This document shows, in pieces, positions 29,571 to 35,037 of a stretch of DNA of 35,103 bases. The number at the start of each line of letters is the position of its first letter. The first letter of the stretch is position 1. Both the position numbers and the translations under genes were made by a program. Below the pieces are notes generated by a model that ran no database searches, was not told the DNA's origin, and saw only the letters and a program-made list of their open reading frames with translations. The stretch spans positions 1-35,103 of IMG/VR virus record IMGVR_UViG_3300045996_002019; one strand, 5' to 3'. Source of the stretch: a virus.

Positions 29571-29608
29571 GGGCCCGACGTGCTGTTCGCCAGCAGCACG
29601 TCGGGCCC
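29571..29608 (+). terminator. Strong terminator closing the late operon
   Basis: GGGCCCGACGTGCTG (29571-29585) and CAGCACGTCGGGCCC (29594-29608) form a perfect 15-bp stem with an 8-nt loop, followed by CTTCCGTCT. With the repeat at 29531 it forms a double terminator that separates the structural and lysis genes from the recombinase region. Confidence 0.85.
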
Positions 29609-29667: not shown

Positions 29668-29877
29668 ATGGCCAAGGTCGGACGTCCCCGCGCCGCCACC
29701 GCGGCCAACATCGACAGCGCGACCAAGAACGAAGTCGCCAAGCTGCTGTCGTGCTCGGTGCGACACGTCGAGCGGCTGATCGACCGCGGCGACCTCGAAG
29801 CGTGGAAATCCGGGCGCGCGGTCCGGATCTGGTTCCGCTCGGTGCAGGCCTACCAAGAGGCCAACCGCGTCAGCTGA
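29668..29877 (+). CDS. Excisionase-like HTH DNA-binding protein
   Basis: A 69-residue protein. ATG 29668 is preferred (AAAGGA upstream) to ATG 29644. It has a basic AT-hook-like N-terminus (MAKVGRPRAA), then a MerR/excisionase-type helix-turn-helix: NEVAKLLSCSVRHVERLIDR, GDLEAWKSGR and the RIWFRSVQAYQEA wing. Such proteins act as recombination directionality factors or small regulators. It stands alone after the late terminator, about 280 bp before the lox-like palindrome, so it could bend or mark DNA there. A transcription regulator is equally possible. It shares the leader CCCGAAAGGAACC with the Cys-rich gene at 34809. Confidence 0.65.
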   Translation: MAKVGRPRAATAANIDSATKNEVAKLLSCSVRHVERLIDRGDLEAWKSGRAVRIWFRSVQAYQEANRVS

Positions 29878-30098: not shown

Positions 30099-30117
30099 CC
30101 GACTGGGGCCGACTGGG
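30099..30117 (+). repeat. 10-bp tandem direct repeat beside the lox-like site
   Basis: CCGACTGGG occurs at 30099-30107 and again at 30109-30117, a period of 10 bp, or one DNA turn. It is immediately upstream of the minus-strand gene and 44 bp from the lox-like palindrome. It could be an operator or an accessory protein-binding site. Confidence 0.45.
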
Positions 30118-30160
30118 TGACCCTCGGGGCGACTCCCGCATTTCTGCGTAGTAGGTCTGG

Positions 30161-30194
30161 CTGGTGCCCGATAACATGCCTTATCGGGCACCAG
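30161..30194. other. 34-bp lox-like recombination site candidate
   Basis: A perfect palindrome whose layout matches loxP: 13-bp arm CTGGTGCCCGATA (30161-30173), asymmetric 8-bp spacer ACATGCCT (30174-30181), 13-bp arm TATCGGGCACCAG (30182-30194). As in loxP the arms end in ATA/TAT next to the spacer. From memory, the arm of SloxP, the target of the Cre homologue SCre, is CTCGTGTCCGATA; it matches in 11 of 13 positions. The site lies between two divergent genes, where a terminator is not needed, 3.4 kb before a Cre-like recombinase gene in the operon that starts 38 bp away. A repressor operator is the main alternative. Confidence 0.65.
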
Positions 30195-30231
30195 GATCAG
30201 CCGGTGCGAAGATCACTTAGAAGGGCTTTCC

Positions 30232-30357
30232 GTGCAAACCCAGACCCCCGCTCCCCCGGACCCCGCCGGGTTGGTCTTCACGGTGCCGCCCGAGGCGGTC
30301 ACTTCCGACGACCCCCGGTACACCACCCACCTCGTCGACGAGTTGGTGCAGGCATGA
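30232..30357 (+). CDS. 41-residue leader gene of the recombinase operon
   Basis: A short frame from GTG 30232 with AGAAGGGC upstream. The peptide is Pro-rich, then polar (MQTQTPAPPDPAGLVFTVPP, EAVTSDDPRYTTHLVDELVQ, A). It ends in the ATGA overlap GTGCAGGCATGA shared by three further junctions in this operon. It may be a real small protein or a translational leader for the next gene. The overlap and shared junction support translation. Confidence 0.55.
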   Translation: MQTQTPAPPDPAGLVFTVPPEAVTSDDPRYTTHLVDELVQA

Positions 30358-31529
30358 GCGTCCAGATCGGCAACACCGGGATGACCAGCACCATCACGCG
30401 CCACCGCGCCGAACTGGACGCGGAGCAGCCCGGCCTGTGGCGGGTGTCGTGGTTGTCCGACCTGGTCGACCGCAACCGCGCGATCACCGCTCTGCTGGTG
30501 GCCGAGCACGTAGAGGCGGGTGCCGACAACCCGGACCACCCCGACTGGCACCTGGTCGAGTCGTTCGCCGACGAGCTGGGCCTGAATGCGCACGAGCTGG
30601 TCGCGCGGGTCAACGAACCTGTGCGGACCCCGCCTGTTGCCGAGCCCACTCCCCCGGCGGCCGAGCGGCCCGTCGCCACGCTGGCCACCGTCGAGGGCCG
30701 GGCCGCCGACGAGGCGGCCGGCACCGCCGACGCCGCGCACGGTGCCGGCCGCCTGAACCGGGTCATCGAGCTCGTGCGCGACACGCTGAACCCGCCCGCC
30801 GAGAAGTTCGACGCGCTCGACGCCCGCGAGTTGATCAGCGCCGTTGGGGCACAGGTGGCGAGGAACCGCCGCGGCGAGCTGGCCGACCACGAGTTGATCG
30901 GCGAAGTGGCGTCACGGCTGTTGCCGTTCGGCGACGACGACCAGCGGGCCAAGGGCCTGGCCGGGCTCGCCGGCCTGGCGGCCGAGGTGGTGCAGGCGTG
31001 CACCGCCGACGCCGCGTTCTACGCCTACCAGCGAGGCCTCGCCGACGGGCGGGCCCGACTCGCCGCAGAGAGCCGGGTCGACCGGGACCCGGCCGCCGCC
31101 GACGAGTGGGTCGGGCTCGACGAGCTGACCAGGCGGGCCGACGCGGAGCCCCACGCCGGTGACGTCGACCCGACCCGGGCCGCAGTGACGGGGTACCTCG
31201 ACCAGACGCCGACCATGAAGCAGCCCGACGTGCTCGGCGACATCCTGGCGCGCGATCACGTGCTGGTCGCCGAGCGCGCCGAGCGCGACACCGACGAAGA
31301 CGAGTGGAAATTCTGCGGTCTGATCCGTGGCGTGCCCGCCGATGTGTTCGACCGGCTCGATGCCGGTGACGCGGAGATGGTCGACGCGATCGTGCGAGCC
31401 GCGACCGGCGAAGTGCTCAAGGAGTACGAGGTTCTGCACGTGACCCTGCACGACCCGGCTGGCGCCCGGATCGGCACCCGCGAGGTCGACCAGTGGGTCA
31501 CCGGCAATCCGGGCACGGTGCAGGCATGA
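30354..31529 (+). CDS. Hypothetical protein with an N-terminal domain duplicated in the next gene
   Basis: A 391-residue protein starting at ATG 30354 in the ATGA overlap. Residues 1-88 contain MTSTITRHRAELD, WRVSWLSDLVDRNRAITALL and DHPDWHLVESFADELGL; the same order recurs in the protein at 31526. After a Pro-rich linker (90-110) comes a helical region, about 130-245 (LNRVIELVRDTLNPPAEKFD), with a Gly/Ala-rich AKGLAGLAGLAAEVVQA helix. The C-terminal 100 residues end in a strand-rich part (EVLKEYEVLHVTLHDPAGAR). I recognise no family, membrane segment or catalytic motif. Confidence 0.65.
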   Translation: MSVQIGNTGMTSTITRHRAELDAEQPGLWRVSWLSDLVDRNRAITALLVAEHVEAGADNPDHPDWHLVESFADELGLNAHELVARVNEPVRTPPVAEPTPPAAERPVATLATVEGRAADEAAGTADAAHGAGRLNRVIELVRDTLNPPAEKFDALDARELISAVGAQVARNRRGELADHELIGEVASRLLPFGDDDQRAKGLAGLAGLAAEVVQACTADAAFYAYQRGLADGRARLAAESRVDRDPAAADEWVGLDELTRRADAEPHAGDVDPTRAAVTGYLDQTPTMKQPDVLGDILARDHVLVAERAERDTDEDEWKFCGLIRGVPADVFDRLDAGDAEMVDAIVRAATGEVLKEYEVLHVTLHDPAGARIGTREVDQWVTGNPGTVQA

Positions 31530-31852
31530 GCACGCGCATCGACGAGCGCGAGATGACCAGCAGCCGGACCAGCCACCGTGCCGTGGTGGTCGAGGGCGCC
31601 GACCAGTACGACAAGGGCGCCTGGCGGGTGTCCTGGCTGGACGGTGTCGCTCTCGACCGCGACCAGGCGATCACGGCCATGACCCTGGTCGAGTACGTGG
31701 GCTTCGGCGTCACCTCAGCGGACCACCCGAAGTGGCCGTTCGTGAAGACATGGGCGGCCGAGCTGGGCCTGGGCCCCGCCGAGGTCGTGGAGCTGATCCT
31801 GACCAAGACCGGCGATGGCCAGGTCGACGGTGCTCCGGCGGTGCAGGCATGA
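31526..31852 (+). CDS. Small paralogue of the N-terminal domain of the preceding protein
   Basis: A 108-residue protein from ATG 31526 in the ATGA overlap. It aligns end to end with residues 1-88 of the 391-residue neighbour: MTSSRTSHRAVVV, AWRVSWLDGVALDRDQAITA, DHPKWPFVKTWAAELGLGPA. The nucleotide start regions are also alike (GATGACCAGCA in both). It appears to be a tandem duplication of a domain of about 90 residues whose conserved WRVSWL and ELGL motifs mark it as a fold. Function unknown. Confidence 0.65.
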   Translation: MSTRIDEREMTSSRTSHRAVVVEGADQYDKGAWRVSWLDGVALDRDQAITAMTLVEYVGFGVTSADHPKWPFVKTWAAELGLGPAEVVELILTKTGDGQVDGAPAVQA

Positions 31853-32550
31853 ACACCGACAAGCCGGTCCCCGGTCTCTTCGGCGCAGGTGTCAGCAAGA
31901 TCGAGGAAACCGACTTCCCCGCGCTCGTCCGCCACATCACCCACGCTGACGAGGCCCGCTTCACCGGCGAGCTTGCCCTCGCCGCTGCCCTGATCAAGGC
32001 GGGCGCCGACACCGGGTTCGACCTCGAGGGCCGCCGGAGAAGCCAGCAGAGGGCGAGCATAGTCAAGCTCCTGGAGAGCATCGTCGACCACGGCGACCTC
32101 ACACCGCCGGAGGTGCGCGAGTACGCCGGGTGGCTGGCCGTGCGGACCCTCGCCCAGCTGGAAGACCTCGGGTACGGCGAGGCCTGCGTCTACGCCCTGA
32201 CCCGGGCACTGCTCCCCCCGGACGTGTACACCAGCCACGCTGTCCGCGGCACACTCCTCGAACGCGACGGCATCCCGTGCGTGCTGTTCGACCGGTACGT
32301 CTTCAAGCCCAACGGCCCCAGCGGTCCCGACCCCGTGCGGTTCCTGCAGTCCCCCGCCGGTTGGGAGTGGACGCTGGAACCCATCGACCATAGGCAAGAG
32401 GCGGACCTGGCCAGCGTCCGCACCGGTGACGTGAAGTGGAAGCCGCTGGACGTCGGCTCCCGTCCGACCGTTCCGGCGTTCGTCGACGCCACACTCCCCC
32501 TCGTCGTCGGCTTCCCGCGCACTTCCGCTGAAAGGGCGGTTCAGGCATGA
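31849..32550 (+). CDS. Hypothetical protein of the recombinase operon
   Basis: A 233-residue protein from ATG 31849 by ATGA coupling. The first two thirds are helical (FTGELALAAALIKAGADTGF, then EYAGWLAVRTLAQLEDLGYG). The last third is strand-rich with conserved-looking aromatic residues (IPCVLFDRYVFKP, GWEWTLEPIDH). It ends in ERAVQA, like its upstream neighbours (-VQA), and overlaps the next gene through GTTCAGGCATGA. No family is recognised. Confidence 0.65.
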   Translation: MNTDKPVPGLFGAGVSKIEETDFPALVRHITHADEARFTGELALAAALIKAGADTGFDLEGRRRSQQRASIVKLLESIVDHGDLTPPEVREYAGWLAVRTLAQLEDLGYGEACVYALTRALLPPDVYTSHAVRGTLLERDGIPCVLFDRYVFKPNGPSGPDPVRFLQSPAGWEWTLEPIDHRQEADLASVRTGDVKWKPLDVGSRPTVPAFVDATLPLVVGFPRTSAERAVQA

Positions 32551-33461
32551 GCTACGTGATCCCCACCGGCACCCAGGACGCTCCGGAGCTGGCCGCGCGG
32601 CTGGCCGCGCTGTGGGCACCGGCCCCGCCGAACGGCGCCGTCGTCCGCGACGAGTACGACCACGACCAGTGCACCGGCGCCGACGACTGCTCGTGCTCGT
32701 GGCACATGCACCAGCACCACGTGCGCACCGCCCGCTGCCAGCGGACCGACTGCGCCAGGCCGACCCGTTACCGGCTGCGCATGTGGAAGCCGAACGGCAC
32801 CACCACCTTGCAGGCCGGCGAGCTGGGCCGCGGCGAGAACCCCGACGAGTGGCTGACGTTCAGCGAGGAGCCCTGGTACCTCACCGGATCCGAGCGCTAC
32901 GCCTGCGACCGGGACCACGCCTACGAACTGGCCGAGCTGCTGCGGCTGCGCTACGCCACCCCGGACGACGACGAGGCCACCCGGTGGCGCGTGCTGATCG
33001 AGCCGCACCGGTACGAGCCTGACGGCTACGACCTGGCCGGCACCGGCATGGTGTGGCTGCAGACGCTGGGCACCACCATCCAGTACGGGGTGCGCCAGCT
33101 GGTCGACCTGGTCAACCCGTACGCGGTCCATCCCCACCGCGATGCCGCCTACGTGCTCGACCACGTCCGCCGCTCGGCCGCCGAGCTGGCCGTCGAGCTG
33201 GCCCGACTGGACACCAGGCCTGTGCCCCAGGCCCGCTACACCGACGCCATCCCGGCCGAGGTCAACGCGGTGCGCACCGCACCGGACGGCCCGATCGTCC
33301 GGCGTCGTGTGCCGACCGGCCCGACCTCGGGCTGGTTCACGCTCACCACCCACGTGTCCTACGAGTCCGACGACGAACTGCTGGCCGCGTACCCCGGCGG
33401 CCTGTACGAGCTCGGCCGGTCCGAGCTGGTCCTGCCGGACGACACGGAGGAACAGCCGTGA
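32547..33461 (+). CDS. Hypothetical protein with Cys/His-rich N-terminus
   Basis: A 304-residue protein from ATG 32547. Residues 38-70 are dense in metal ligands (DHDQCTGADDCSCSWHMHQH, then HVRTARCQRTDC) and probably bind zinc. A region of strands follows (RYRLRMWKPNGTTTLQAGEL), then helices with YACDRDHAYELAELLRLRYA, and a beta-rich end (TSGWFTLTTHVSYESDDELL). No catalytic signature is evident. It overlaps the short membrane peptide gene by GTGA. Confidence 0.65.
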   Translation: MSYVIPTGTQDAPELAARLAALWAPAPPNGAVVRDEYDHDQCTGADDCSCSWHMHQHHVRTARCQRTDCARPTRYRLRMWKPNGTTTLQAGELGRGENPDEWLTFSEEPWYLTGSERYACDRDHAYELAELLRLRYATPDDDEATRWRVLIEPHRYEPDGYDLAGTGMVWLQTLGTTIQYGVRQLVDLVNPYAVHPHRDAAYVLDHVRRSAAELAVELARLDTRPVPQARYTDAIPAEVNAVRTAPDGPIVRRRVPTGPTSGWFTLTTHVSYESDDELLAAYPGGLYELGRSELVLPDDTEEQP

Positions 33462-33580
33462 GCCGACGCCGCTACCGTCACCCGCTCAGCCGGAGCGGCT
33501 TCGACACCGTGATGTTCGTGCTGCCGTTCGTGGTCGTCGCCGTGCTGGTCACTCTGGCCCTGACCGGGAACCTGGGATGA
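33458..33580 (+). CDS. 40-residue single-span membrane peptide
   Basis: A short frame from GTG 33458 in a GTGA overlap. It has a basic start (MSRRRYRHPLSRSGFD) and one hydrophobic segment (TVMFVLPFVVVAVLVTLALT), ending GNLG. Its stop overlaps the ATG of the recombinase gene (ATGA). The arrangement makes it both a probable inner-membrane peptide and a coupling element for recombinase translation. Confidence 0.6.
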   Translation: MSRRRYRHPLSRSGFDTVMFVLPFVVVAVLVTLALTGNLG

Positions 33581-34734
33581 CCACCGAGCACGAAGTACTC
33601 GACGGCGAGCTGGTCGACGAGCGGCCCGGCCTGCCGGCGATCCCGGCCGGCCGCGCCGTCGACCGCCTCGACGACCGGGCCCGCCGACGCCGGGATGCGG
33701 CCATGCCGATCAACACCAAGCGCGCGTACGCGCGCCTGGTGTACGGCCGGATCGTCAAGGTGTCCGAGGACGGAAAGACGATCGACGCCGGCCCGGCCGG
33801 CCCGGTCAGCACCGGCCAGGCCGGCATCGACTGGGCCGACATGGCGTGGGTGCCGTGGTGCCGGGAGACCGGGCGCCCGTCCGGCCTCGACGGTGTACCG
33901 GCATCCGAGGAATCGCTGGGGCAGTGGGTGTCCGAGCTGGCGGACCTACGCGTCGGAGCGCCGCAGATCGAGCAGGCGATCTACGCCGTGCGCCGGCTGC
34001 ACCGCGACAACAAGATGCCCGGCCAGCCGCAGACCGACACGGCCCTGGCGATCCTGCGCACCTACCGCAGGGACGAAGGCGGCGCGCGGCCGGTCGACCG
34101 GGCCAAGCCCTTGGAGACGCGATCGCTGCGGCAGATGCTCAACGCGATGCCGACCGGCCCGGACGGACAGCTCTCCCCCATCGGCGTGCGCGACGCCTTC
34201 GTGCTCGTGGCCGGGGTCAAGGCGATGTTGCGCCGCTCCGAGCTGTTGGCCCTGCGGATCGAGCACACGCGGGTCGGTGACCGCGGCGTCGAGTTGTGGC
34301 TGCCCGCGTCCAAGACGGACAAGGACGCCAAGGGCGCGAAGATCGTCATTCCCCGTGACGACGCGGGCGACCCGAAGTGGGACGTCACCACGCTGCTGGC
34401 GGCCTGGCTGCGGCTGCTCGCCGAGCAGGGCATCACCACGGGACCGCTGGTGCGGTCGGTGAACCGGCACGGCCGTATCGGTGGCCCGTTGAACTCCGGC
34501 GCCAAGGACATCGACCGCCTGGTCAAGCGCGCCGCCGTGCGCGCGGGCTTGGATCCGGACGGCTGGAAGGGCCACAGCATGCGGTCCGGCGGTGCGTCCG
34601 CCGCACACGCGGGTGGCGCCTCCTACGGCGCGATCCAGCGCCAGGGCCGCTGGTTGAGCCTGGCCCAGGTCATGGTCTACATCCGCGATGCCGAGCAGTG
34701 GACCGGCAACGCAGCCTCCCGAATCCACCTGTAA
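33577..34734 (+). CDS. Cre-like tyrosine recombinase
   Basis: A 385-residue protein starting at ATG 33577 in an ATGA overlap. The catalytic set is complete: R219 (MLRRSELLAL), E222, K246 (ASKTDKDAKG), H333 and R336 (KGHSMRSGGASAAHAGGASY), W359 (GRWLSLAQ) and nucleophile Y368 (VMVYIRDAEQWTGN). The GHSxR-x-G-A and VMxYIR-x4-TG pattern closely follows Cre of phage P1 rather than lambda-type integrases. The N-terminal core-binding domain (INTKRAYARL through WVPWCRETGR) carries a roughly 30-residue insertion at about 55-85. It ends the operon that begins beside the lox-like palindrome, so resolution of plasmid dimers or circularisation of the phage DNA is the likely role. Chromosomal integration cannot be excluded. 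Confidence 0.88.
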   Translation: MTTEHEVLDGELVDERPGLPAIPAGRAVDRLDDRARRRRDAAMPINTKRAYARLVYGRIVKVSEDGKTIDAGPAGPVSTGQAGIDWADMAWVPWCRETGRPSGLDGVPASEESLGQWVSELADLRVGAPQIEQAIYAVRRLHRDNKMPGQPQTDTALAILRTYRRDEGGARPVDRAKPLETRSLRQMLNAMPTGPDGQLSPIGVRDAFVLVAGVKAMLRRSELLALRIEHTRVGDRGVELWLPASKTDKDAKGAKIVIPRDDAGDPKWDVTTLLAAWLRLLAEQGITTGPLVRSVNRHGRIGGPLNSGAKDIDRLVKRAAVRAGLDPDGWKGHSMRSGGASAAHAGGASYGAIQRQGRWLSLAQVMVYIRDAEQWTGNAASRIHL

Positions 34735-35000: not shown

Positions 35001-35037
35001 GAGGGCCCGACCACCGGCGTGCGGTGGTCGGGCCCTC
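35001..35037 (+). terminator. Perfect 16-bp hairpin terminator
   Basis: GAGGGCCCGACCACCG (35001-35016) and CGGTGGTCGGGCCCTC (35022-35037) pair without mismatch around GCGTG. It lies 15 bases after the Cys-rich peptide gene and ends that unit. From 35038 to the window edge there is no gene. Confidence 0.85.

Follow-up and report, generated by a model that had tools for sequence, protein, structure and literature searches.

A candidate Cre/lox-type recombination system with accessory sequences in a GC-rich, probably actinobacterial, phage

We analysed a 35,103-nt stretch of viral DNA, here called the window (IMG/VR record IMGVR_UViG_3300045996_002019, positions 1 to 35,103). It contains an open reading frame (ORF) that encodes a Cre-type tyrosine recombinase and, 3.4 kb from this gene, a 34-bp palindrome that is very probably its crossover site. 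Judged from the sequence, the best reading of the locus as a whole is a Cre/lox-type system with accessory sequences. A preliminary description of this DNA had recognised the Cre-type enzyme and the linked palindrome, and that part of it stood; it had missed the accessory block and the excisionase-like gene. The novelty looks to lie in the former, a 61-bp block that adjoins the site in each of the three phages compared, downstream of the excisionase-like gene. The features are listed in Table 1.

Table 1. Features of the window in the region of the candidate recombination system.
Feature	Coordinates	Strand	Details or basis
69-aa helix-turn-helix protein, excisionase-like (HTH_17)	29668..29877	+	Pfam, PHROG
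Conserved accessory block left of the site	30100..30160	+	CGACT direct repeats at 30100, 30110 and 30130
Small inverted repeat CGCA-TTTC-TGCG	30137..30148	.	Inside the accessory block
Predicted lox-like crossover site	30161..30194	.	Arms 30161-30174 and 30181-30194; central CATGCC 30175-30180
Five overlapping ORFs, function unknown	30354..33580	+	Between site and recombinase: 30354-31529, 31526-31852, 31849-32550, 32547-33461, 33458-33580
Predicted Cre-type tyrosine recombinase, 385 aa	33577..34734	+	ORF, phmmer, Pfam, profile, tree, catalytic residues, AlphaFold/Foldseek/VIA-align

The window has a G+C content of 70.7%, in agreement with the high GC reported earlier. Its terminase matched 1,986 phage records, most of which are, by name, phages of Mycobacterium (1,295), Gordonia (227) or Streptomyces (207). 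This points to actinobacterial hosts, as the preliminary description had assumed. Neither Rfam nor tRNA searches gave a hit in the window, and none of the 10 proteins tried from its first 11 kb had a Pfam match.

The recombinase ORF is open throughout. Residues R219, E222, K246, H333, R336, W359 and Y368 of its product align with Cre residues R173, E176, K201, H289, R292, W315 and Y324, respectively, and the catalytic set claimed earlier (these residues without E222) is therefore complete. When the protein was compared with solved chains using phmmer, 17 sequences were returned at an E value of ≤1, every one of them Cre or its variant Tre. A 13-row profile of relatives gave a best Cre match of 2.7e-38 and a best XerD match of 2.4e-18, with integron and phage integrases at 2.2e-6 or weaker. 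An AlphaFold model built from 18 alignment rows (mean pLDDT, 82.2; pTM, 0.65; residues 1-29 and 73-79 unreliable) was submitted to Foldseek, and the top 33 rows again were Cre or Tre, at 16-21% identity to Cre in fold alignments. Z scores from VIA-align mostly were 20.5-22.6 for Cre/Tre entries (two mutant entries scored 17.4 and 18.1), compared with 17.4 for XerH, 14.9-15.8 for lambda Int and 19.3, at an rmsd of 14, for one XerA chain. By profile and fold, then, the enzyme is nearer to Cre than to Xer proteins or integrases. In a 72-row tree, the window recombinase and two phage orthologues formed a clade (100/99) whose sister was a set of 40 rows, most of them actinobacterial (98/85). A larger group (83/98) also included SCre and Cre, the placement of Cre being unsure; the branches of Cre and lambda Int are very long. 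XerD and lambda Int lay outside, so the grouping with attP/attB integrases that had been considered earlier was not seen. Among INPHARED phages, a single distant record matched the recombinase at an E value of ≤1e-5. When 345 genomes belonging to one order were searched at a strict E value of 1e-45, no orthologue was recovered, an empty answer that is uninformative.

The predicted site reads CTGGTGCCCGATAA-CATGCC-TTATCGGGCACCAG, with 14-bp arms that are perfectly paired. It can equally be read as 13+8+13, with 13-bp arms flanking ACATGCCT, which is the loxP geometry with an asymmetric 8-bp centre that the preliminary description had proposed. The 34-bp sequence is unique in the window at ≤3 mismatches (shuffle expectation, 0.00). 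Perfect palindromes with arms of ≥14 and a spacer of 4-10 occur seven times in the window (overlaps counted), whereas 100 shuffles averaged 0.00. This abundance is accounted for by further, GC-rich hairpins of terminator-like appearance (e.g., 29571-29608 and 35001-35037); palindromy therefore indicates selection, is not proof of lox function and by itself is weak evidence for it. The palindrome would form a perfect RNA hairpin (-26.0 kcal/mol) between the helix-turn-helix (HTH) gene and the downstream operon, and the terminator-like look of the phage's other hairpins would also suit a transcription terminator or RNA hairpin unconnected with the recombinase. We nevertheless regard this explanation as highly improbable. 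The palindrome is not followed by a T run and was absent from a terminator scan (which also misses GC-rich hairpins), the stems in two related phages have two A-C mismatches and are less stable (-11.6 and -18.1), and the same half-site is found at recombinase genes of plasmids, viruses and other bacteria. The left arm equals a palindrome on a plasmid of Shewanella sp. ANA-3 (L068) at 11 of 13 bases. The match to the SloxP arm claimed earlier thus holds against this plasmid palindrome, which we take to be SloxP.

Related phages were sought through the capsid protein. This search of viral contigs gave at least 79 loci, and ten of these records were then searched for the recombinase. The two closest phages among the matches listed (capsid identity, 76% and 70%) both carry it, at 46% and 44% identity over nearly the full length. 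No recombinase match was found in the other eight records, several of which are short, and a search for further phages with the second recombinase returned only the record already known. The palindrome is present in both phages (L307 and L308) at the syntenic place, downstream of the HTH gene, as TAGATGTCCGATAA-TGTGCC-TTACCGGACACCTA and TAGACGTCCGATAA-CTTGGG-TTACCGGACGCCTA, respectively; the co-occurrence of site and gene that the preliminary description had proposed to check was thus seen in both phages found to have an orthologue. The central six bases differ in all three phages (CATGCC, TGTGCC and CTTGGG). The two arms changed together in part: four of the six variable arm positions are altered in both arms and the other two in a single arm, so that 12 of the 14 arm positions are paired in each relative, the two mismatches being the same. 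Separate covariation counts were discarded as evidence, being circular, as the sites had been chosen for complementarity. The five ORFs between site and recombinase had no Pfam match and a single weak PHROG match (0.021), to a family of unknown function. For all but 31849-32550, one of the two relatives encodes a homologue in the interval from site to recombinase.

The 60 bp to the left of the site can be aligned without gaps in the three phages, with agreement at 42-47 of 60 positions; beyond these 60 bp, agreement falls to 2-6 of 15. In each of the three phages, CGACT is located at -61, -51 and -31, against a background of 0.16-0.18 per 100 bases in their records, and the three-repeat pattern occurs once in the window and 0.00 times in shuffles. 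The CGCA....TGCG of the block also is retained in both relatives. When the inner part of the block was searched in viral contigs, the two matches were the same two related phages, and visual inspection of eleven other lox-like sites revealed no three-repeat array. With spacings of 10 and 20 bp, the repeats would all face the same side of the helix.

The HTH protein matched Pfam HTH_17 (5.5e-10) and, more weakly, PHROG excisionase families (best, 1.6e-4). It is 86-87% identical in both relatives, compared with 40-42% for the recombinase in the same comparison. Its profile gave no match at an E value of ≤0.01 in 122 related recombinase/site loci. An excisionase-like gene and repeats beside the site suit a regulated, perhaps directional, reaction, and we infer that the timing or the direction of site use is probably controlled by the CGACT repeats and this protein. 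A more specific model, in which a standard lox core is gated by a phased CGACT array bound by a dedicated excisionase-like protein, is offered tentatively; it would give a Cre-type enzyme a direction or topological control that is absent from Cre. The palindrome itself might instead be an operator of the HTH protein or of another repressor. The HTH gene ends 283 bp upstream of it, an operon follows it, and elsewhere such palindromes are found at the start of the recombinase gene, where repression would act. We consider an operator very doubtful, as the half-site is common to recombinase-linked palindromes elsewhere and the HTH profile was unmatched in the 122 such loci; the CGACT repeats would be the better candidates for binding of the HTH protein.

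We then asked how widespread the predicted recombinase and its site are. tblastn found relatives in 236 plasmid records (33 from Streptomyces). Among actinobacterial genomes, there were matches in 59 of 150 from one family (E ≤ 1e-10) and in 69 of 394 from one class (E ≤ 1e-15). Matches span most of the protein in 46 of these 69 genomes (one with internal stops) and are partial, mostly covering the C-terminal end, in 23; the latter may be other tyrosine recombinases. The claim of the preliminary description that a GC-rich member would be new as such was thus not supported, because relatives are widespread in actinobacteria, Streptomyces plasmids included. Several of the actinobacterial relatives carry a palindrome of their own. 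We defined a lox-like palindrome as 13-bp arms with at least 10 positions paired, ATAA or TTAT at an inner end and a centre of 6-7, and scanned 49 actinobacterial loci, the best-scoring places from both protein searches. A palindrome lay between -500 and +60 of the start of the recombinase domain in 15 of these 49 best-scoring loci and farther upstream in two more; 34 of the 49 had no near-start site under the definition used. In 40 longer loci, there were 16 sites within 22 kb near gene starts versus 5 within 570 kb elsewhere; these loci were chosen after a palindrome list had been seen, and the 49-locus count is the repeat on all loci returned. No lox-like palindrome was found in 77 phage-capsid control loci (1.16 Mb), which are structural regions and for this reason alone might contain no recombinase. 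At the strict setting, three of the 10 plasmid, phage and viral loci first picked by protein had a lox-like palindrome: L003 (a Microcystis phage), L013 (Streptomyces) and L016 (a sphingomonad).

The palindromes themselves vary. That of the Streptomyces plasmid (L013:4939-4974) has CTTCGTATAA arms and lies just upstream of a Cre-like recombinase; these arms resemble the loxP arm of P1. In a subgroup of actinobacterial recombinase loci (L139, L141, L144 and L146), palindromes of the GTGTTTAC-GGC-GTAAACAC type and variants of it are located near the gene, replacing the GATAA-type site, and the centre between the ATAA/TTAT ends is 7 nt rather than 6 nt in L191, L197, L216 and others.

The converse scan began from the site. 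The pattern TGYCCGATAA-N6-TTATCGGRCA was found at 65 loci in genome contigs, 14 of which had a recombinase of ≥50 bits. One of the 14 is the Shewanella SCre plasmid, and in 11 of them an open recombinase frame lies within 200 bp of the site. The remaining 51 had no recombinase of ≥50 bits in the stretch examined; in a Nocardia alba contig, the recombinase lies about 2.4 kb from its site, outside that stretch. Viral contigs gave eight loci with the pattern (L007 and L010 are the same site). A strong recombinase was present within 600 bp of the site in two of them, one with arms that differ from those of the window at 1 of 14 positions, and six had no strong one. The L009 arm equals the window arm except for one base. 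When whole viral records were searched, four of the eight matched the recombinase at an E value of ≤0.001, two of these weakly. With the reversed pattern as a control, a recombinase was found at none of 10 viral loci, most of which look alike. Since the majority of site loci had no recombinase match, the TGYCCGATAA-type palindrome may have other uses too. An asymmetric site pattern found three further viral records, with no HTH or recombinase gene in the stretches examined; one has a weak recombinase match (1.9e-6) elsewhere.

Palindromes with TG(T/C)CCGATAA half-sites also were noted on different contigs of one Prevotellaceae MAG (L022, L072, L080 and L083) and one deltaproteobacterial MAG (L020, L057, L066 and L070). 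No Cre-like recombinase was present in the stretches examined around them, which suggests that the half-site serves another purpose. Actinobacterial genome G147 carries one lox-like site twice with its 7-nt centre unchanged, once in the chromosome and once in a 55-kb contig (L197:11121-11153 and L313:5553), within a 61-bp stretch of 95% identity; a similar pair in G517, involving a 35-kb contig, has slightly different arms.

The pairing of gene and site is based on comparison. The 3.4 kb between them, the imperfectly paired arms of the two relatives, the palindromes with no recombinase match nearby (that of Nocardiopsis halophila included) and the protein-found loci lacking a near-start site count against it. 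By analogy with Cre, two recombinase subunits would bind the two arms, two sites would pair within a tetramer, and Y368 would cut on either side of the central 6-8 bp. Strand exchange would proceed via a Holliday junction, with the asymmetric centre determining direction. As to its role, we somewhat favour recombination between copies of the phage genome, i.e., circularisation of incoming DNA or multimer resolution, as in P1, over integration. Centres that differ, and arms that have largely changed in concert, fit recombination between copies of the same kind. The P1 analogy is weakened by a search for ParA, which found none in three phage records (the window, G527 and G531), although these may be fragments, versus 14 of 14 control genomes; ParA was matched in all three records of L003, L013 and L016. 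Integration, the main alternative role, accepts the pairing of gene and site: the palindrome would be attP, the HTH protein an excisionase, and insertion would occur at a host site with equal central bases. The gene order (lysis, HTH, site, recombinase) resembles that of temperate phages, the HTH protein has its HTH_17 and excisionase family matches, CGACT repeats adjoin the core, and in 2 of 18 actinobacterial genomes a chromosomal site and a site on a second contig share one 7-nt centre. This role nevertheless seems rather unlikely to us. The window arms (11 nt, ≤3 mismatches) occurred in 1 of 394 actinobacterial genomes, as did the reversed control. That genome, Nocardiopsis halophila, has exact arms around another centre; no recombinase is located on the same contig, its recombinases being on other contigs. 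No host site was found among these 394 genomes. Moreover, the variation of centres and arms among the three phages suits like-site recombination, and Pfam detected Phage_integrase alone in the recombinase, with no arm-binding domain (residues 1-29 are modelled with low confidence).

The predicted system brings together a diverged actinobacterial enzyme of the Cre type and a candidate site that can be tested. None of the titles and abstract openings searched described a system of this type from actinobacteria together with its site, but such members may have been reported before. A 2012 survey notes many Cre-like plasmid recombinases without an assignable function (PMC3414803). The results above suggest that a palindrome at the gene start is a simple way to predict the sites of such orphan recombinases. 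New orthogonal sites would be useful as tools for genome work, and a Cre-type system under natural regulation, if this is one, would illustrate how a simple recombinase can acquire directionality.

Compared with known systems, XerCD/dif has the tyrosine recombinase fold in common with the window enzyme but differs in its weaker profile and fold match, in having H in XerD where the window has W359 and in falling outside the clade. The actinobacterial plasmid and chromosomal Cre-like recombinases are sister to the phage clade, and 15 of their 49 best-scoring loci have an ATAA-N6/7-TTAT-type palindrome near the gene start. They differ in that the site usually adjoins the gene, and matches were found neither for the structural proteins of the window (42 loci) nor for the HTH protein (122 loci). 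Cre/loxP of phage P1 has the closest solved structures by sequence and fold and is alike in 13-8-13 geometry and catalytic residues; it differs in the low identity of the fold alignments (16-21%), in its arm sequence and in ParA, which was unmatched in three phage records of the window's group. loxP is not known to need accessory DNA. SCre/SloxP of the Shewanella sp. ANA-3 plasmid resembles the window in its Cre-type enzyme, in 11 of 13 left-arm bases (again taking that palindrome to be SloxP) and in having site and gene kilobases apart (3.5 kb in the SCre plasmid). It is, however, a proteobacterial plasmid system with an enzyme distant from the window recombinase in the tree, and, in contrast to it, the repeat block of the window is, in viral contigs, confined to the two related phages.
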